Shown: positions 34,308 to 38,885 of the stretch, in pieces
How the letters are laid out: the number at the start of each line of letters is the position of its first letter
Numbering within the stretch: the first letter of the stretch is position 1
Source of the DNA: Actinomycetales bacterium
GTDB lineage: Bacteria > Actinomycetota > Actinomycetes > Actinomycetales > Kineosporiaceae
Length of the DNA stretch: 39,290 nt
Reading direction: 5' to 3'
Assembly (NCBI GenBank): GCA_012719445.1
Contig: JAAYAH010000157.1
Span: 1-39,290 of the forward strand
The notes under the pieces: model-generated
What the model saw: the letters and a program-made list of their open reading frames with translations, nothing else
What the model was told of the DNA's origin: nothing
Database searches by the model: none
Made by a program: the position numbers and the translations under genes

Positions 34308-34862
34308 TCAGCGTGCCCGAAGAACCGCCGTGGAGAGGACCAGCCCGGCACGCTCCAGCCGGTCGAGGACGTCGTCGACGGTTCCGGGTGGACGTCGCCA
34401 AGAGTCCGCGATCCGCTGGACAGCCGCATACACCGCGCTGCGGTCCAGATCGATCTGGGCCCGAACGAACTCGTCAGGCGACTTGGGTTCGATATCCCAC
34501 TGGTTCAGGGCATCAATGGGAAAGTGCCGGAGATTGCTGGTGACGATGACCTGGGCGTGCGTTCTGATGGCGGCGGCGAGGACGTGCCGATCATCGGGGT
34601 CGGGCAGTGATACCGACTCGACCAGGGGCTCGTACCCGCTGACCCTCCAGTCCCGCACTGCCGTACCCATCAGCGTCCGAGTCCGGTCGAGCCGGGCCGG
34701 GTCCAGGTCGGGACGGTTACGGCGCACGGCGGTGAACACCTCGTCGAGGATCTGCTCGGTCCACTTGGCCTGCACCAGTTCGGCCTGGGCGATTCGGATG
34801 AGAAGGCCACGCAGCACGTTGGGGTACAGCACGCTGGCGTCGTAGACCACGACGAAGCTCAC
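34308..34862 (-). CDS. PIN-domain RNase toxin
   Basis: A 184-residue protein with PIN-fold acids in place: VVYDASVLYPN (Asp8), then the central acidic residues around VSLPDPDDRHVLAAA, and VIVTSNLRHFP near the C-terminal active-site strand. It belongs to the longer PIN toxins (about 180 residues, COG-type 'PIN domain nuclease') rather than classic VapC. The GTG at 34862 is 3 nt after the stop of the HTH antitoxin gene, a typical antitoxin-first arrangement. It probably cleaves RNA when the antitoxin is lost. It looks intact, in contrast with the frameshifted vapC 1.3 kb away. Confidence 0.87.
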   Translation of the reverse strand: MSFVVVYDASVLYPNVLRGLLIRIAQAELVQAKWTEQILDEVFTAVRRNRPDLDPARLDRTRTLMGTAVRDWRVSGYEPLVESVSLPDPDDRHVLAAAIRTHAQVIVTSNLRHFPIDALNQWDIEPKSPDEFVRAQIDLDRSAVYAAVQRIADSWRRPPGTVDDVLDRLERAGLVLSTAVLRAR

Positions 34863-34865
34863 GAC

Positions 34866-35324
34866 TCAGCTCAGCCCCATCTCCTGAGCCAGCACACTCA
34901 GCTCATCTGCCGCACCACGACGACGGGCATCATCGTGACGCTTGTACTCCAGCAACGACCCCGCCAGGACCCTCCGGTGCGTCCCCACCCGCCGGTACTC
35001 GATCTCCCCCGACTCCAGCAACCCGATCAGGTAGGGACGTGAGACGTTCAGCAGGTCAGCGGCCTGTTGCGTGGTCAGCTCGGCATGCGAGGGCACGATC
35101 GACACCCCCTGCCCACCGGCCAGGTGCGCCAGCACCCGAGCCAGCAGTTCCACCACCATGCGCGGAACCACCAGCTCGCTGCCGCCCTCGTCGTCCGACA
35201 GACGCACCCGCGCAGGGCCCTCCGTATGCCGACTCAGGTACGCCTGCACCCGCTCCAGCGCCTCCGCAGCCGTCCGTGCCTCGTCCTCATCCGGAGCCAC
35301 CGCCCCAGCCAGCCTCGTCACCAT
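34866..35324 (-). CDS. Excisionase-type HTH antitoxin
   Basis: A 152-residue protein. The ATG at 35324 has GGAGG 8 nt upstream. The C-terminal half is a MerR/excisionase-like HTH (LTTQQAADLLNVSRPYLIGLLESGEIEYRRVGTHRRV), preceded by an acidic helical region (DEDEARTAAEALERVQAYL) and a LVVPRMVVELLARVLAHLAGG segment. This domain pair next to a 180-residue PIN protein is a recurrent toxin-antitoxin type in actinobacteria. The antitoxin binds its own promoter and the toxin. A stand-alone excisionase role is less likely because no integrase is present. Confidence 0.85.
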   Translation of the reverse strand: MVTRLAGAVAPDEDEARTAAEALERVQAYLSRHTEGPARVRLSDDEGGSELVVPRMVVELLARVLAHLAGGQGVSIVPSHAELTTQQAADLLNVSRPYLIGLLESGEIEYRRVGTHRRVLAGSLLEYKRHDDARRRGAADELSVLAQEMGLS

Positions 35325-35433
35325 CACGACCACCTCCAGCCATCCGCATTATCCGCAATAAACGCAGCGGACGCAACGCTGACTGGCTAGGCCGGCGCTC
35401 AGCACCACCCAGCGGGCACTCCATCGTCATCCT

Positions 35434-35585: not shown

Positions 35586-36131
35586 CTAATCGGCAGCCGC
35601 GGCGGCAGCCATCGAGTCACTCACCACTTCCGGGATCGACTCATCAGCGGCTGGCTGTCCGGCCTCCCACTGGCCATCGGTCCCGACACGCCATCGGTGT
35701 GGACCCCCAGTTGCCGTCCACACGGTGTCCGGCCGGGTCGCCGCCCACGCAACCACTGACCCGACACCACCGTCGATCTTCGGATGATCGGGTTCCAGGA
35801 CGACCTTGCCCGTCGTCACGTCCACCACCCGGAACTGCCAGTCCTCGCTGTCAGTCACCGGGTCGGCGCGCATCACCTCCAGGCGGTACCGGCCCGACGG
35901 CGAGACAGCCGGCCGACCGGGCCAGCTCACACCGCCACCCTTGACCGGGCAGTACGCGTTCCGGTCCGGGCAGAGGGTGGCGTCCCCGACGTCGTCCGGA
36001 CCTGGCGCAGCTGGTCTCTCCTTGTCTCCGTGGCCGGAGCAACCCACGCACAACGTGATCGCGGCCATCGCAACGACTGCCACCCGCGCACCCCGCCTCA
36101 ACGCTGCCCGCACCATCACCGTCGTCGCCAT
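35586..36131 (-). CDS. Small lipoprotein of unknown function
   Basis: A 181-residue protein. A basic N-terminus (MVRAALRRGAR), hydrophobic VAVVAMAAITL and lipobox LCVGC place the lipidated Cys at about residue 31. The mature part is strand-rich (RYRLEVMRADPVTDSEDWQFRVVDVTTGKVVLEPDHP, VVAWAATRPDTVWTATGG), suggesting a beta-propeller-like or single-blade domain with Trp/Asp motifs. No family is recognised. The start codon at 36131 is only a few bases from the 3' end of a group II intron, so the gene has no ribosome site of its own in the unspliced state. Confidence 0.8.
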   Translation of the reverse strand: MATTVMVRAALRRGARVAVVAMAAITLCVGCSGHGDKERPAAPGPDDVGDATLCPDRNAYCPVKGGGVSWPGRPAVSPSGRYRLEVMRADPVTDSEDWQFRVVDVTTGKVVLEPDHPKIDGGVGSVVAWAATRPDTVWTATGGPHRWRVGTDGQWEAGQPAADESIPEVVSDSMAAAAAAD

Positions 36132-36186
36132 TGGTAGTCAGGGGCGCCGGTACCGCTGCGCGGTCCGGGTTCCCCATCCCCCTTTC

Positions 36187-36219
36187 AATCCGTACGTGCG
36201 GTTCTCCCGCATACGGCTT
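36187..36219 (-). ncRNA. Group II intron domain V
   Basis: On the minus strand the sequence AAGCCGTATGCGG, a GAGAA loop, then CCGCACGTACGG forms the conserved domain V hairpin, including the AGC catalytic triad and the two-base bulge region. It lies 23 nt after the reverse transcriptase stop, the standard position. Domain VI follows to about 36135. Confidence 0.9.
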
Positions 36220-36241
36220 ACCGATGATCTTCTAGACATGG

Positions 36242-37678
36242 TTACGCAGCCTTCGGATAGCGGACGGTGCCACGCAGACGGTGCAGGCCGTGCCCGTTGA
36301 ACCAGGCCTCGTTCCACTGCCGGGCCTGACCGGCACGCAGATTGCGACCTCGCTTCTTGACCATCAGGCCATGAAGACGGTCGACCACGTACCGGTCGAC
36401 CTGGGCGAACTTGACGGCGGCGTTGCCGGTTCGGAAGTAGGAACCCCAGCCCCGGATGATCGGGGTGATCTCCGCGATGACCACGCGGATGTCGACCCCG
36501 ACCCGGTTGCGACCGGTCCGGTCTCGGATCTTCTCCCGCAGCCGCTTCATCGCCCGCTGACTGGGCCACCGCTGCAGGTAGTAGCGCACGATCCGCCTGC
36601 GTTCCCACAGCTTGCCCGACATGCGAGCCCGGAAATGGCATCCGAGGAAGTCCAGGCCCTCCCGGCCCTCGCGCAGGTCGACCACCCTCGTCTTGTCCGG
36701 ATGCAGCTCCAACCCCAGGTCCGCCAGCGCATCGCTGACGACCCGCAGGGCCGCCCGCGCCGCCGCCGGAGTGCGACACAAGATCACACCGTCGTCGGCG
36801 TAGCGGACCAGCTCACCCAGACCCGCGTCGGTGACGTGGGCCTGGACGTGCCGGTCGAAGGCGTGCAGGTAGACGTTCGCCAGCAACGGGGAGATCACCC
36901 CGCCCTGCGGCGTCCCAGCGATGGTCGGCTGCCGCGTGCCGTCGACCATCACCCCCGCCTGCAGCCACAACCGGAGCAGTTTGAGCACCCGCCGATCCGA
37001 GACCCGTCGTCCGACCGCCACCAACAACCGCTGATGCTCGATCGAGCCGAAGAAGTCGCGGATGTCGAACTCCACGACCTGGGTGTAGCCGGCGATGAAG
37101 GCGGTACGAAACCGTTCCATCGCCTGCGTGGCCGACCGCCTCGGCCGGAACCCGTAGGAGACCGGCAGGAAGTCGGCCTCGAAGATCGGCTCCAACACCA
37201 GCTTCACAGCGGCCTGCGCCACCCGGTCCCGCACCGTCGGGATCCCCAACGGACGCTTACCACCATCTGGTTTCGGGACCTCCACACGCCTGGCTGGCGC
37301 GGGACGGTACCTGCCCTCGCGGAGGTCGTGTTGGAGTTCGCCCAGCATCCGGGCCACCCCGTAGACCTCCACCTCCGCCAGGGTCAGCTTGTCGACCCCG
37401 GCGGCACCCCTGTTGGCCCGGACCCGCTCCCACGCCGCCACCAGGACGTCACCCCGATGGACACGGTCGTACAAGGCATGGAAACGCCGACCCGGCGACT
37501 GCTTGGCCGCAGCCCATAGCGCACGTTGCAGTTCTCCCGCTCTGCCCACCCGCGGCACCACCAGCACGCGACCCGCCGGTCCCCCGGCAGGCTCAGGTGC
37601 CGGTGATCCGACACGACCCACAGCAGCGGCAGGCCCAGATTGCCTACCGGGGTAGTTGGACCGGGACACCCCGGCCAT
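36242..37678 (-). CDS. ltrA: Group II intron reverse transcriptase/maturase
   Basis: A 478-residue protein from the ATG at 37678. The RT domain has RPLGIPTVRDRVAQAAVKLVLEPIFEADF, SYGFRPRRSATQAM, GTPQGGVISPLLANVYLH and the catalytic YADD (LVRYADDGVIL), followed by LHPDKTRVVDLREGREGLDFLG. The C-terminal maturase (X) region is present (WGSYFRTGNAAVKFAQVDRYVVDRL), ending RGTVRYPKAA. No HNH endonuclease domain is seen, which implies retrohoming without second-strand cleavage. All core motifs are intact, so the intron may still splice and move. Confidence 0.93.
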   Translation of the reverse strand: MAGVSRSNYPGRQSGPAAAVGRVGSPAPEPAGGPAGRVLVVPRVGRAGELQRALWAAAKQSPGRRFHALYDRVHRGDVLVAAWERVRANRGAAGVDKLTLAEVEVYGVARMLGELQHDLREGRYRPAPARRVEVPKPDGGKRPLGIPTVRDRVAQAAVKLVLEPIFEADFLPVSYGFRPRRSATQAMERFRTAFIAGYTQVVEFDIRDFFGSIEHQRLLVAVGRRVSDRRVLKLLRLWLQAGVMVDGTRQPTIAGTPQGGVISPLLANVYLHAFDRHVQAHVTDAGLGELVRYADDGVILCRTPAAARAALRVVSDALADLGLELHPDKTRVVDLREGREGLDFLGCHFRARMSGKLWERRRIVRYYLQRWPSQRAMKRLREKIRDRTGRNRVGVDIRVVIAEITPIIRGWGSYFRTGNAAVKFAQVDRYVVDRLHGLMVKKRGRNLRAGQARQWNEAWFNGHGLHRLRGTVRYPKAA

Positions 37679-38051
37679 GCCCACACGGTTACCCACTCCC
37701 TGCGCGTGATCAAAGTCGGGGCCCTTCCCTCCCACCGGGTTCCTCCCGGCGATCAGCGGTACTACGACCCCGTCGGACTCCCGCTGGCCTCCCTCGGACT
37801 TCACCATCGGCTTATACCTCGGGTCTCTGCCGGACGTCGGCCGGCCAGACGGGCCTCTCCTGTTCCACCCCAAACCGTGATCACGTACCGCTCCCCGTAC
37901 CCCGGGAGAACCCACCAGGCTGACCCCGGAACAGGGCCCGGCAGACATGGCCTTCACCGTGACATGAGCGGCTCGGCTTCTCCATTGTGAGTGTGACGAG
38001 GCTGCAGGACTCGCGCCGCGTGGCGCTACGGCCATCGGCCCAGGCCAAGGG

Positions 38052-38885
38052 TCAGGACCTGATGGCACGCACCCAGCGGACGACGCGACGGGGGACGAGC
38101 GACCGCCAGGTCCTGCGCCTGGCCCTGAGGGGTCGCACGATGGGCTCCGCAGTCCGGGAGGGACGCGCGATGGGGGCGTCGGCCCCGTCGTCCGCGGTCA
38201 GGTGCCAGTACGCCGACTTCTTGACGGTCCGTGCGTCCGGCTTGTAGTACGGCTTGGCCAGGGTGAGGTGCGGCCGTTCCCAGGCGATATCCCGTCTCAC
38301 CACGTGCGCCGGCACCCCCACGGCGACCACGTTGTTGGGGATGCGTCTGGTCACCACGCTGCCGCACCCGATCACCGAGCCGTCGCCGATCGTCACGCCG
38401 CCCAGCACCATGGCGCGGTAACCGAGCCAGACGTGGTTGCCCACCGTGATGTCTCTGGACACGTTGACGCGCTTACCGGTGCGAACGTCGAAGATCGGGT
38501 GCCCGTCATCCGCGCGGAGTTGGTTCCCCGTCGCGAACATCACGTCCTCGCCGATCTCGATGGTGGTTCCCTCGGCCGCCGACATGTACACCGTGTCCGT
38601 CGAACTGACGTTGTGCCCGATGACGATACGGCTGTCCTGCCCCACACGGAGGGTGCCACGGAACGGCGTTCCGTGACTGTTGCCGCCGATCGTGATCACA
38701 CCGTTGCTGCAGTCGAACACTGCCGACAACCGGAAAATCTTCGCGTCGGCGGCAACCACAAGGCGATTGCCGTTCCCGCGGAACTTGATCGAGATATTCT
38801 CGGCACGCGGTTCACCCTCGTACTCGACGCAGTTACCGGTCTCGGCGTCGGTGAAGGGCTCGAGCTTCCTGAGGACTGTGACCAC
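38052..38885 (-). CDS. Hexapeptide-repeat acyltransferase
   Basis: A 277-residue left-handed beta-helix protein. Hexapeptide turns include GNRLVVAADAKI, DSRIVIGHNV, GTTIEIGEDV, VSRDITVGNHVWLGYRAMVLGG and VTIGDGSVIGCGSVVTRRIPNNVVAVGVPAHVV, the standard end of the NodL/LacA/maltose-acetyltransferase family. The C-terminal 80 residues (YYKPDARTVKKSAYW and an Arg-rich tail) are an added domain, seen in polysaccharide-modifying members. The likely role is O-acetylation of a sugar during surface glycan assembly. The GTG at 38885 has a poorly spaced ribosome site, so the start is moderately certain. The group II intron lies downstream. Confidence 0.9.
   Translation of the reverse strand: MVTVLRKLEPFTDAETGNCVEYEGEPRAENISIKFRGNGNRLVVAADAKIFRLSAVFDCSNGVITIGGNSHGTPFRGTLRVGQDSRIVIGHNVSSTDTVYMSAAEGTTIEIGEDVMFATGNQLRADDGHPIFDVRTGKRVNVSRDITVGNHVWLGYRAMVLGGVTIGDGSVIGCGSVVTRRIPNNVVAVGVPAHVVRRDIAWERPHLTLAKPYYKPDARTVKKSAYWHLTADDGADAPIARPSRTAEPIVRPLRARRRTWRSLVPRRVVRWVRAIRS

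Follow-up and report, generated by a model that had tools for sequence, protein, structure and literature searches.

A truncated group II intron in front of a lipoprotein-like gene points to an intron family that probably inserts at promoters, mostly of leaderless-type genes

The minus strand of contig JAAYAH010000157.1 from an Actinomycetales bacterium (39,290 nucleotides, analysed over the whole length and called the window in the following) carries, from 38885 down to 35586, a hexapeptide-repeat acyltransferase gene, a group II intron that encodes a reverse transcriptase (RT), and a lipoprotein-like open reading frame (ORF). Comparison with related introns makes it very likely that this intron has lost its 5' part, is probably unable to splice and belongs to a family whose insertion targets are promoters, with the start codon of a leaderless-type gene hit in nearly all cases. 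Intact members of the family are located between the T and the G of an (A/G)TG triplet, 6–8 nt past a TAnnnT box and in the direction of transcription. A first-pass annotation of the window had described a group II intron directly against the lipoprotein start codon and had called this position unusual. The arrangement itself was confirmed and its position is meaningful; instead of being unusual, it is the rule of the family, seen at 26 of 27 3' ends and at 52 of 53 5' junctions.

By RT similarity alone 31 loci were gathered, and 3' ends were read for 27 of them (all but L043, L044, L047 and L048). The intron ends in CTACCAATG in 26 of the 27. The exception, L052, is a more distant Chloroflexi RT (50% RT identity) whose intron 3' end does not lie at an ATG. 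Copies from the same genome place the boundaries at ...AT|GTTGCG for the 5' end (two pairs) and at CTACCAAT|G for the 3' end (three pairs), and empty sites together with native GTG starts fix the exact boundary base. Because the intron ends in ...CTACCAAT and the exon begins with G, the A and the T of the downstream ATG are intron bases; by the same boundaries the insertion divides the native start codon directly after its T. The window shares the CTACCAAT|G junction against a gene start. Its minus strand reads ...CTGACTACCAATGG, with the lipoprotein ATG two bases past CTGACTAC, so that the earlier description of an intron end 2–5 nt before the ATG holds for the distance to CTGACTAC, but not for the A and T of the ATG, which belong to the intron. 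In the relatives the intron begins with GUUGYG or GGUGYG and ends with AAU, the group II reference ends being GUGYG and AY. Both intron ends were found in 37 of the 53 sites described below; 31 of these introns are 1978–1990 nt long, 4 are shorter and 2 longer. Domain V/VI of five relatives scored 31.8–42.6 bits with RF00029, one of them over the gathering score.

In the set found by RT similarity 19 loci have a readable 5' junction. Together with L042 and L045 they showed a TAnnnT box 6–8 nt before (A/G)T in 20 of 21 cases. A pattern search for the intron 5' end in 297 genomes of one genus (Mycobacterium, as judged by us) gave 46 sites in 20 genomes, while the same pattern read backwards matched once in the 297 genomes. 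Long regions were fetched for 39 of the 46 sites, and of the other seven L086, L089 and L104 were counted as short search loci. All sources together comprise 55 distinct 5' junctions, from which L142 and L144 were dropped as chance or degenerate matches, leaving 53. Upstream of the junction TAnnnT is present in 52 of the 53, with a spacer of 6 (27 sites), 7 (22) or 8 nt (3) and never at 0–5 or 9–12 nt. Directly before the insertion point all 53 junctions have T at −1, preceded by A (43) or G (10) at −2 and in 43 cases by C at −3. Mononucleotide shuffles of the flanks gave 1.0 such junctions on average and never more than 5 (2000 trials), and of 4691 control RTG triplets taken from the DNA around 12 loci only 17 were preceded by a box at this distance. 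A −35 motif was not seen in the aligned flanks of the junctions. The same arrangement was also found on a Planctomycetota contig from a metagenome-assembled genome, on a contig binned as Rubrivivax and on an Embleya plasmid.

Transcription starts have been mapped in M. tuberculosis, and excerpts of that study (PMC3898074) describe a TANNNT motif centred 7–12 bp upstream of 73% of primary starts, with C as the commonest base at −1, A or G at +1 and T at +2. According to the same excerpts no −35 motif was found and about a quarter of the genes are leaderless. The intron targets, TAnnnT-N6-8-(A/G)T|G with mostly C before the A/G, equal this start-site consensus, as far as the excerpts give it, with the start codon placed at +1. 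The A/G of the target would then be transcript base +1 and the insertion would fall between +2 and +3. Since the −10 box lies only 6–8 nt before the start codon, the transcript is predicted to start at or next to the start codon, with no room for a ribosome site. From the sequence pattern, the target is best read as a promoter plus its putative transcription start, mostly of leaderless-type genes. A ribosome site in the 5' exon, as had been proposed for the lipoprotein gene, finds no support in this spacing in the relatives.

We further searched the joined flanks of four insertions from one genome (G856) in 119 relatives, 73 of which gave a match. Two insertions, L125 and L127, were inspected base by base, whereas the empty sites of L126 and L128 were matched only. 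All 29 inspected empty sites (4 for L125, 25 for L127) are contiguous across the junction and read RT|G with TAnnnT at a spacer of 6–8 nt; 19 of the L127 sites have GTG as native start and 6 have ATG. The intron is thus cleanly absent at the exact sites in relatives, which corresponds to clean insertion, and the inspected sites carry conserved RTG starts. Past the junction the host ORF stays open for at least 80 codons in 31 of 36 judgeable sites with both intron ends and for fewer in L114, L121, L133, L148 and L149. For L121 one intron-less relative has no RTG at the junction and a conserved gene start 109 nt downstream; judged from this site, the L121 intron is one that entered a promoter, not a start codon. 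No empty site was found for L148 and L149 in the search of relatives. We also considered whether the intron contains a functional ORF that opens with the captured start codon. The frame of this codon is open for 121–127 codons in most full copies (L113–L151, intron nt 1–378). A functional ORF was rejected, as 5-nt and 1-nt indels change the frame, and no clear codon periodicity was present in this frame (column entropy 0.32, 0.30 and 0.37 for 18 sequences).

A loop in domain I carries a triplet that reads AUG, AUU, ACG or AUA across the family. Its bases pair with the final three of the 5' exon at 40 of the 41 sites with a readable loop (12 of the 53 have none), wobbles counted, and 20,000 permutations reached 37 at most. 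When the third loop base is U, G is found at −3 in 7 of 7 sites; when it is G, in 0 of 33. AUG occurs with CAT, CGT or TAT, AUU with GAT or GGT and ACG with CGT, the first 3'-exon base being G. Because the triplet covaries with the last three exon bases we assign the loop as exon-binding site 1 (EBS1). Three pairs and a G at +1 are too few to choose sites in a genome, therefore recognition of the −10 box has to come from another component. Furthermore, the variable spacer does not agree well with a second RNA pairing at a set distance; it speaks for a spacing-tolerant protein like RNA polymerase.

The window copy has lost the beginning of the intron. Alignment with the full-length relative L023 begins at 38033, about 150 nt inside the L023 intron, and a second search with the 5' part of that intron gave the same start base; the recognisable intron starts here and not at 38000, where the first-pass annotation had set its limit. 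With the first 268 nt of the L023 intron region as query, 13 genomes of the same family including the window's own were searched. Only the part from base 153 on was found, at the window locus, plus one weak 54-nt match in another genome, and the missing 5' end of about 150 nt with the 5' splice site had no other match elsewhere in the window's genome. RF02003 was matched over all 138 model positions in four of five relatives tried (70.6–93.2 bits; the fifth, L115, is rearranged). The window gave no RF02003 match of this kind, and its domain I gave only a partial match to RF02005 under the gathering score. The 5' junction (A/G)T|GKTGYG after the −10 box, present in relatives, is gone with the 5' truncation. 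Since the 5' splice site is absent, ordinary splicing of the window copy is not expected. The RT had been reported as intact, which is correct (ORF 36242–37678, with RVT_1, GIIM and TIGR04416 matches over the cut-off), and splicing had been taken to be maintained, which the lost 5' end does not support. On these sequence grounds the window copy is a shortened, probably inactive copy and not a working switch. A deletion or an incomplete insertion would have removed its 5' end, and the lipoprotein gene would simply carry intron DNA in front. An intron start inside the C-terminus of the acyltransferase was considered and ruled out, as the match to related introns starts only at 38033 and the C-terminus of the enzyme agrees with that of three homologues.

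The intron RNA joins the non-template strand, and in an open complex the insertion point would lie near the downstream edge of the bubble. As a candidate mechanism we prefer that a ribonucleoprotein (RNP) without endonuclease would reverse splice into the non-template strand, which would be single-stranded once RNA polymerase opens the promoter. Specificity beyond the EBS1 pairing would come from the promoter. Once in place, the intron would be transcribed from this promoter starting nearly at its first nucleotide, and the host gene would regain an ATG through the intron's terminal AAT. Profile searches reported no endonuclease domain for the window RT, and excerpts of PMC8914252 state that endonuclease-less introns need single-stranded DNA. 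In a bolder reading the intron would in this way capture a promoter for its own RNA, and the two-base exon could restore a leaderless mRNA with AU (or GU) spliced to G; we put this forward tentatively, at somewhat below even likelihood.

Use of the replication fork is the chief competitor of entry through the open complex. Here TAnnnT...RTG would be a DNA motif read by a protein or RNP on single-stranded DNA of the fork, similar to RmInt1, with RNA polymerase uninvolved. The orientation of the copies counts for it and against our preferred mechanism: 12 of 12 assessed copies in three chromosomes, those of G816, G856 and G706 (C1), are co-oriented with replication, as predicted from RmInt1, where the assessment covers chromosomes with a DnaA-like first ORF, leaves out 11 copies in four others and includes one copy within about 5 kb of the midpoint. 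RmInt1 works without endonuclease and uses the lagging-strand template, as described in excerpts of PMC8914252. However, a spacer of 6–8 nt with only the typical −10 bases fixed is what would be expected for sigma-factor recognition, the C-R-T at the insertion point is the start-site consensus, and a promoter orientation bias alone could explain part of the co-orientation. We regard a fork mechanism independent of RNA polymerase as a serious possibility, although on balance a doubtful one. The two may also act together, in which case the site would be set by the promoter and the primer supplied by the fork.

The remaining explanations are far less probable. Introns might insert widely and persist only at start codons of leaderless genes, which would agree with the 31 of 36 host ORFs that are open past the junction; intergenic insertions, however, should do no harm and be retained, whereas all 53 copies have a −10-like box, and one insertion (L121) is in a promoter whose gene starts 109 nt away, so that we consider such survivorship quite improbable. 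Even less credit can be given to the switch proposed by the first-pass annotation, in which a splicing-competent intron parts the ribosome site from the lipoprotein start codon. The copy does retain its RT and domains V and VI and lies next to the ATG, but about 150 nt of the 5' end including the splice site are missing and full-length relatives carry a −10 box, with no space for a ribosome site, before the start codon. Finally, the ATG at the 3' junction could be a mere by-product of the intron AAT next to an exon G without biological meaning. Its A and T are indeed intron bases, but the AT or GT that closes the 5' exon behind the −10 box is independent of them, and the empty sites with conserved RTG starts contradict this explanation, which leaves it a very small probability.

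Besides co-orientation, several further observations weigh against promoter entry at leaderless-type genes. Ordinary two-step splicing does not easily accommodate a 5' exon of two bases, and the leaderless status of the target genes is deduced from spacing. At a single site, L116/L047, the first T of the −10 box is missing and EBS1 is unpaired as well. For three of the 53 junctions (L086, L104 and L117) the intron part is a stretch of about 33 nt at the end of a contig; not all sites are independent events, since some share a genome or are orthologous. Likewise the 25 empty L127 sites share descent, and the case of L121 is built on one empty site. In a tree of 25 RTs the 18 start-codon introns, scored by their 3' end and including the window, lie together. 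When the very divergent L081, which has a very long branch, is included the family split has no support; without it the 18 start-codon sequences are separated from 6 others with a support of 0.97.

In the window the truncated intron extends from 36130 to 38033 on the minus strand, as are all features given here, its limits being derived from local alignment to full-length relatives and, for the 3' boundary, from same-genome copies and the empty sites of relatives. The remaining part of domain I (37899–38003) corresponds to positions 115–216 of 225 of RF02005 (39 bits, E 6.6e-9, gathering score 49 not reached) and contains the putative EBS1, AUG, at 37963–37965, assigned as partner of the last three 5'-exon bases by covariation in the relatives. 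The RT/maturase of 478 aa (36242–37678) has a YADD motif and a GIIM domain by profile matches and reaches 401 bits with TIGR04416 (cut-off 300). Domain V was located at 36188–36218 by a pattern match with 0 mismatches, and RF00029 matched domain V/VI at 36163–36221 with 35.9 bits, under the gathering score of 40. Domain V is followed by the domain VI region and the intron 3' end ...CTGACTACCAAT (36130–36187), placed by sequence and relatives. The ATG at 36129–36131 takes its AT from the intron and its G from the start of the exon, with the boundary taken from relatives. It opens the 181-aa lipoprotein-like ORF (35586–36131), in which a lipobox-like ITLCVGC was recognized by eye. This ORF has neither a Pfam nor an NCBIfam match; beyond the window's own genome a homologue (48% identical) was found in 1 of 297 genomes of the order searched. 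On the other side the acyltransferase gene (38052–38885) is apparently complete, with a C-terminus comparable to three homologues, and its stop codon ends 18 nt ahead of the truncated intron.

Between domains V and VI a GAAAGGGGG run is present at 36178–36186 and in the 3' ends of relatives. Judged by the anti-Shine-Dalgarno sequence it resembles a ribosome site, and the domain VI hairpin could bring the run near the ATG. Elsewhere in the window's genome three fragments (L002, L003 and L004 on G000:C131 and C132) are 69–84% identical to parts of the intron RT region. A lone 45-nt piece at a contig start (L015, G001:C44:11-55) is 98% identical to the window domain VI region and shortly precedes the ATG of an ORF that by eye resembles a phosphomannomutase; it is perhaps a relic of another insertion. 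Downstream of the lipoprotein gene a PIN-domain gene lies beside a helix-turn-helix gene (34308–35333, minus strand), possibly a toxin-antitoxin-like pair.

Within the family, orthologous-looking target genes are occupied in different genomes in two cases (L132 and L136; L120 and L123), either by inheritance or by repeated insertion. In L063/L118 (G374:C1 near 657225) an intact domain V precedes a domain VI that is disrupted or has been replaced. Another intron, carried by a plasmid and more distant (L183, NZ_CP108821.1, 51% RT identity), has an ATG directly after its 3' CCCTAC, which could be chance.

Excerpts of a review (PMC4424553) list three target types of bacterial group II introns, namely homing sites, terminators and attC sites. 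We found no report of introns targeting promoters, start codons or leaderless genes in the open-licence literature, although a subscription paper could exist. Promoters and leaderless start codons would be a fourth target type for which we found no earlier description. If this is true, it would link the entry of mobile introns to transcription initiation, and the family would give a natural marker of leaderless promoters in Actinomycetota. It also poses a ribozyme question, namely whether an intron can splice with a 5' exon of two bases and, if so, how, and it suggests an insertion tool that reads promoters with almost no guide pairing needed. The window copy alone is ordinary and broken; the interest lies with the family.

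Several known introns share single traits with this family. UHB.I2, a group IIB1 (CL1) intron from a soda-lake metagenome, also has an unusual 5' end, UUGCG, and according to excerpts of PMC7923331 its exons are poorly conserved save for the first two 3' bases, with promoters predicted directly upstream. Compared by this description only, it differs in its typical IIB structure, its location immediately after an attC site and its 3' end GU. For C.te.I1 of Clostridium tetani, excerpts of PMC3919590 likewise describe downstream ORFs with annotated start codons inside intron domains V/VI; in contrast, C.te.I1 joins coding exons by alternative splicing and is described there as having no RT of its own. 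RmInt1 of Sinorhizobium meliloti shares the missing endonuclease domain and the replication-linked orientation, and it needs single-stranded DNA (PMC8914252, in part). As described in the excerpts, RmInt1 pairs over positions −13 to +1 and has its natural target in ISRm2011-2, whereas the promoter family uses about 3 + 1 bases and many different genes. A likeness to group IIC is seen as well, 7uim and GsI-IIC being the best-scoring solved RTs for the window RT. Group IIC introns, which insert after transcription terminators or into attC sites, also have no endonuclease domain and take the remainder of their specificity from a gene-expression signal in DNA, a likeness judged by sequence features. 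Their pairing of EBS1 with intron-binding site 1 spans 3–4 bp, with no evidence for EBS2 in the excerpts of PMC7923331, and the EBS1 found here by covariation is of similar length (3 bp). In place of a hairpin, the promoter family would be directed to the opposite end of the transcription unit, the −10 box and the start site.

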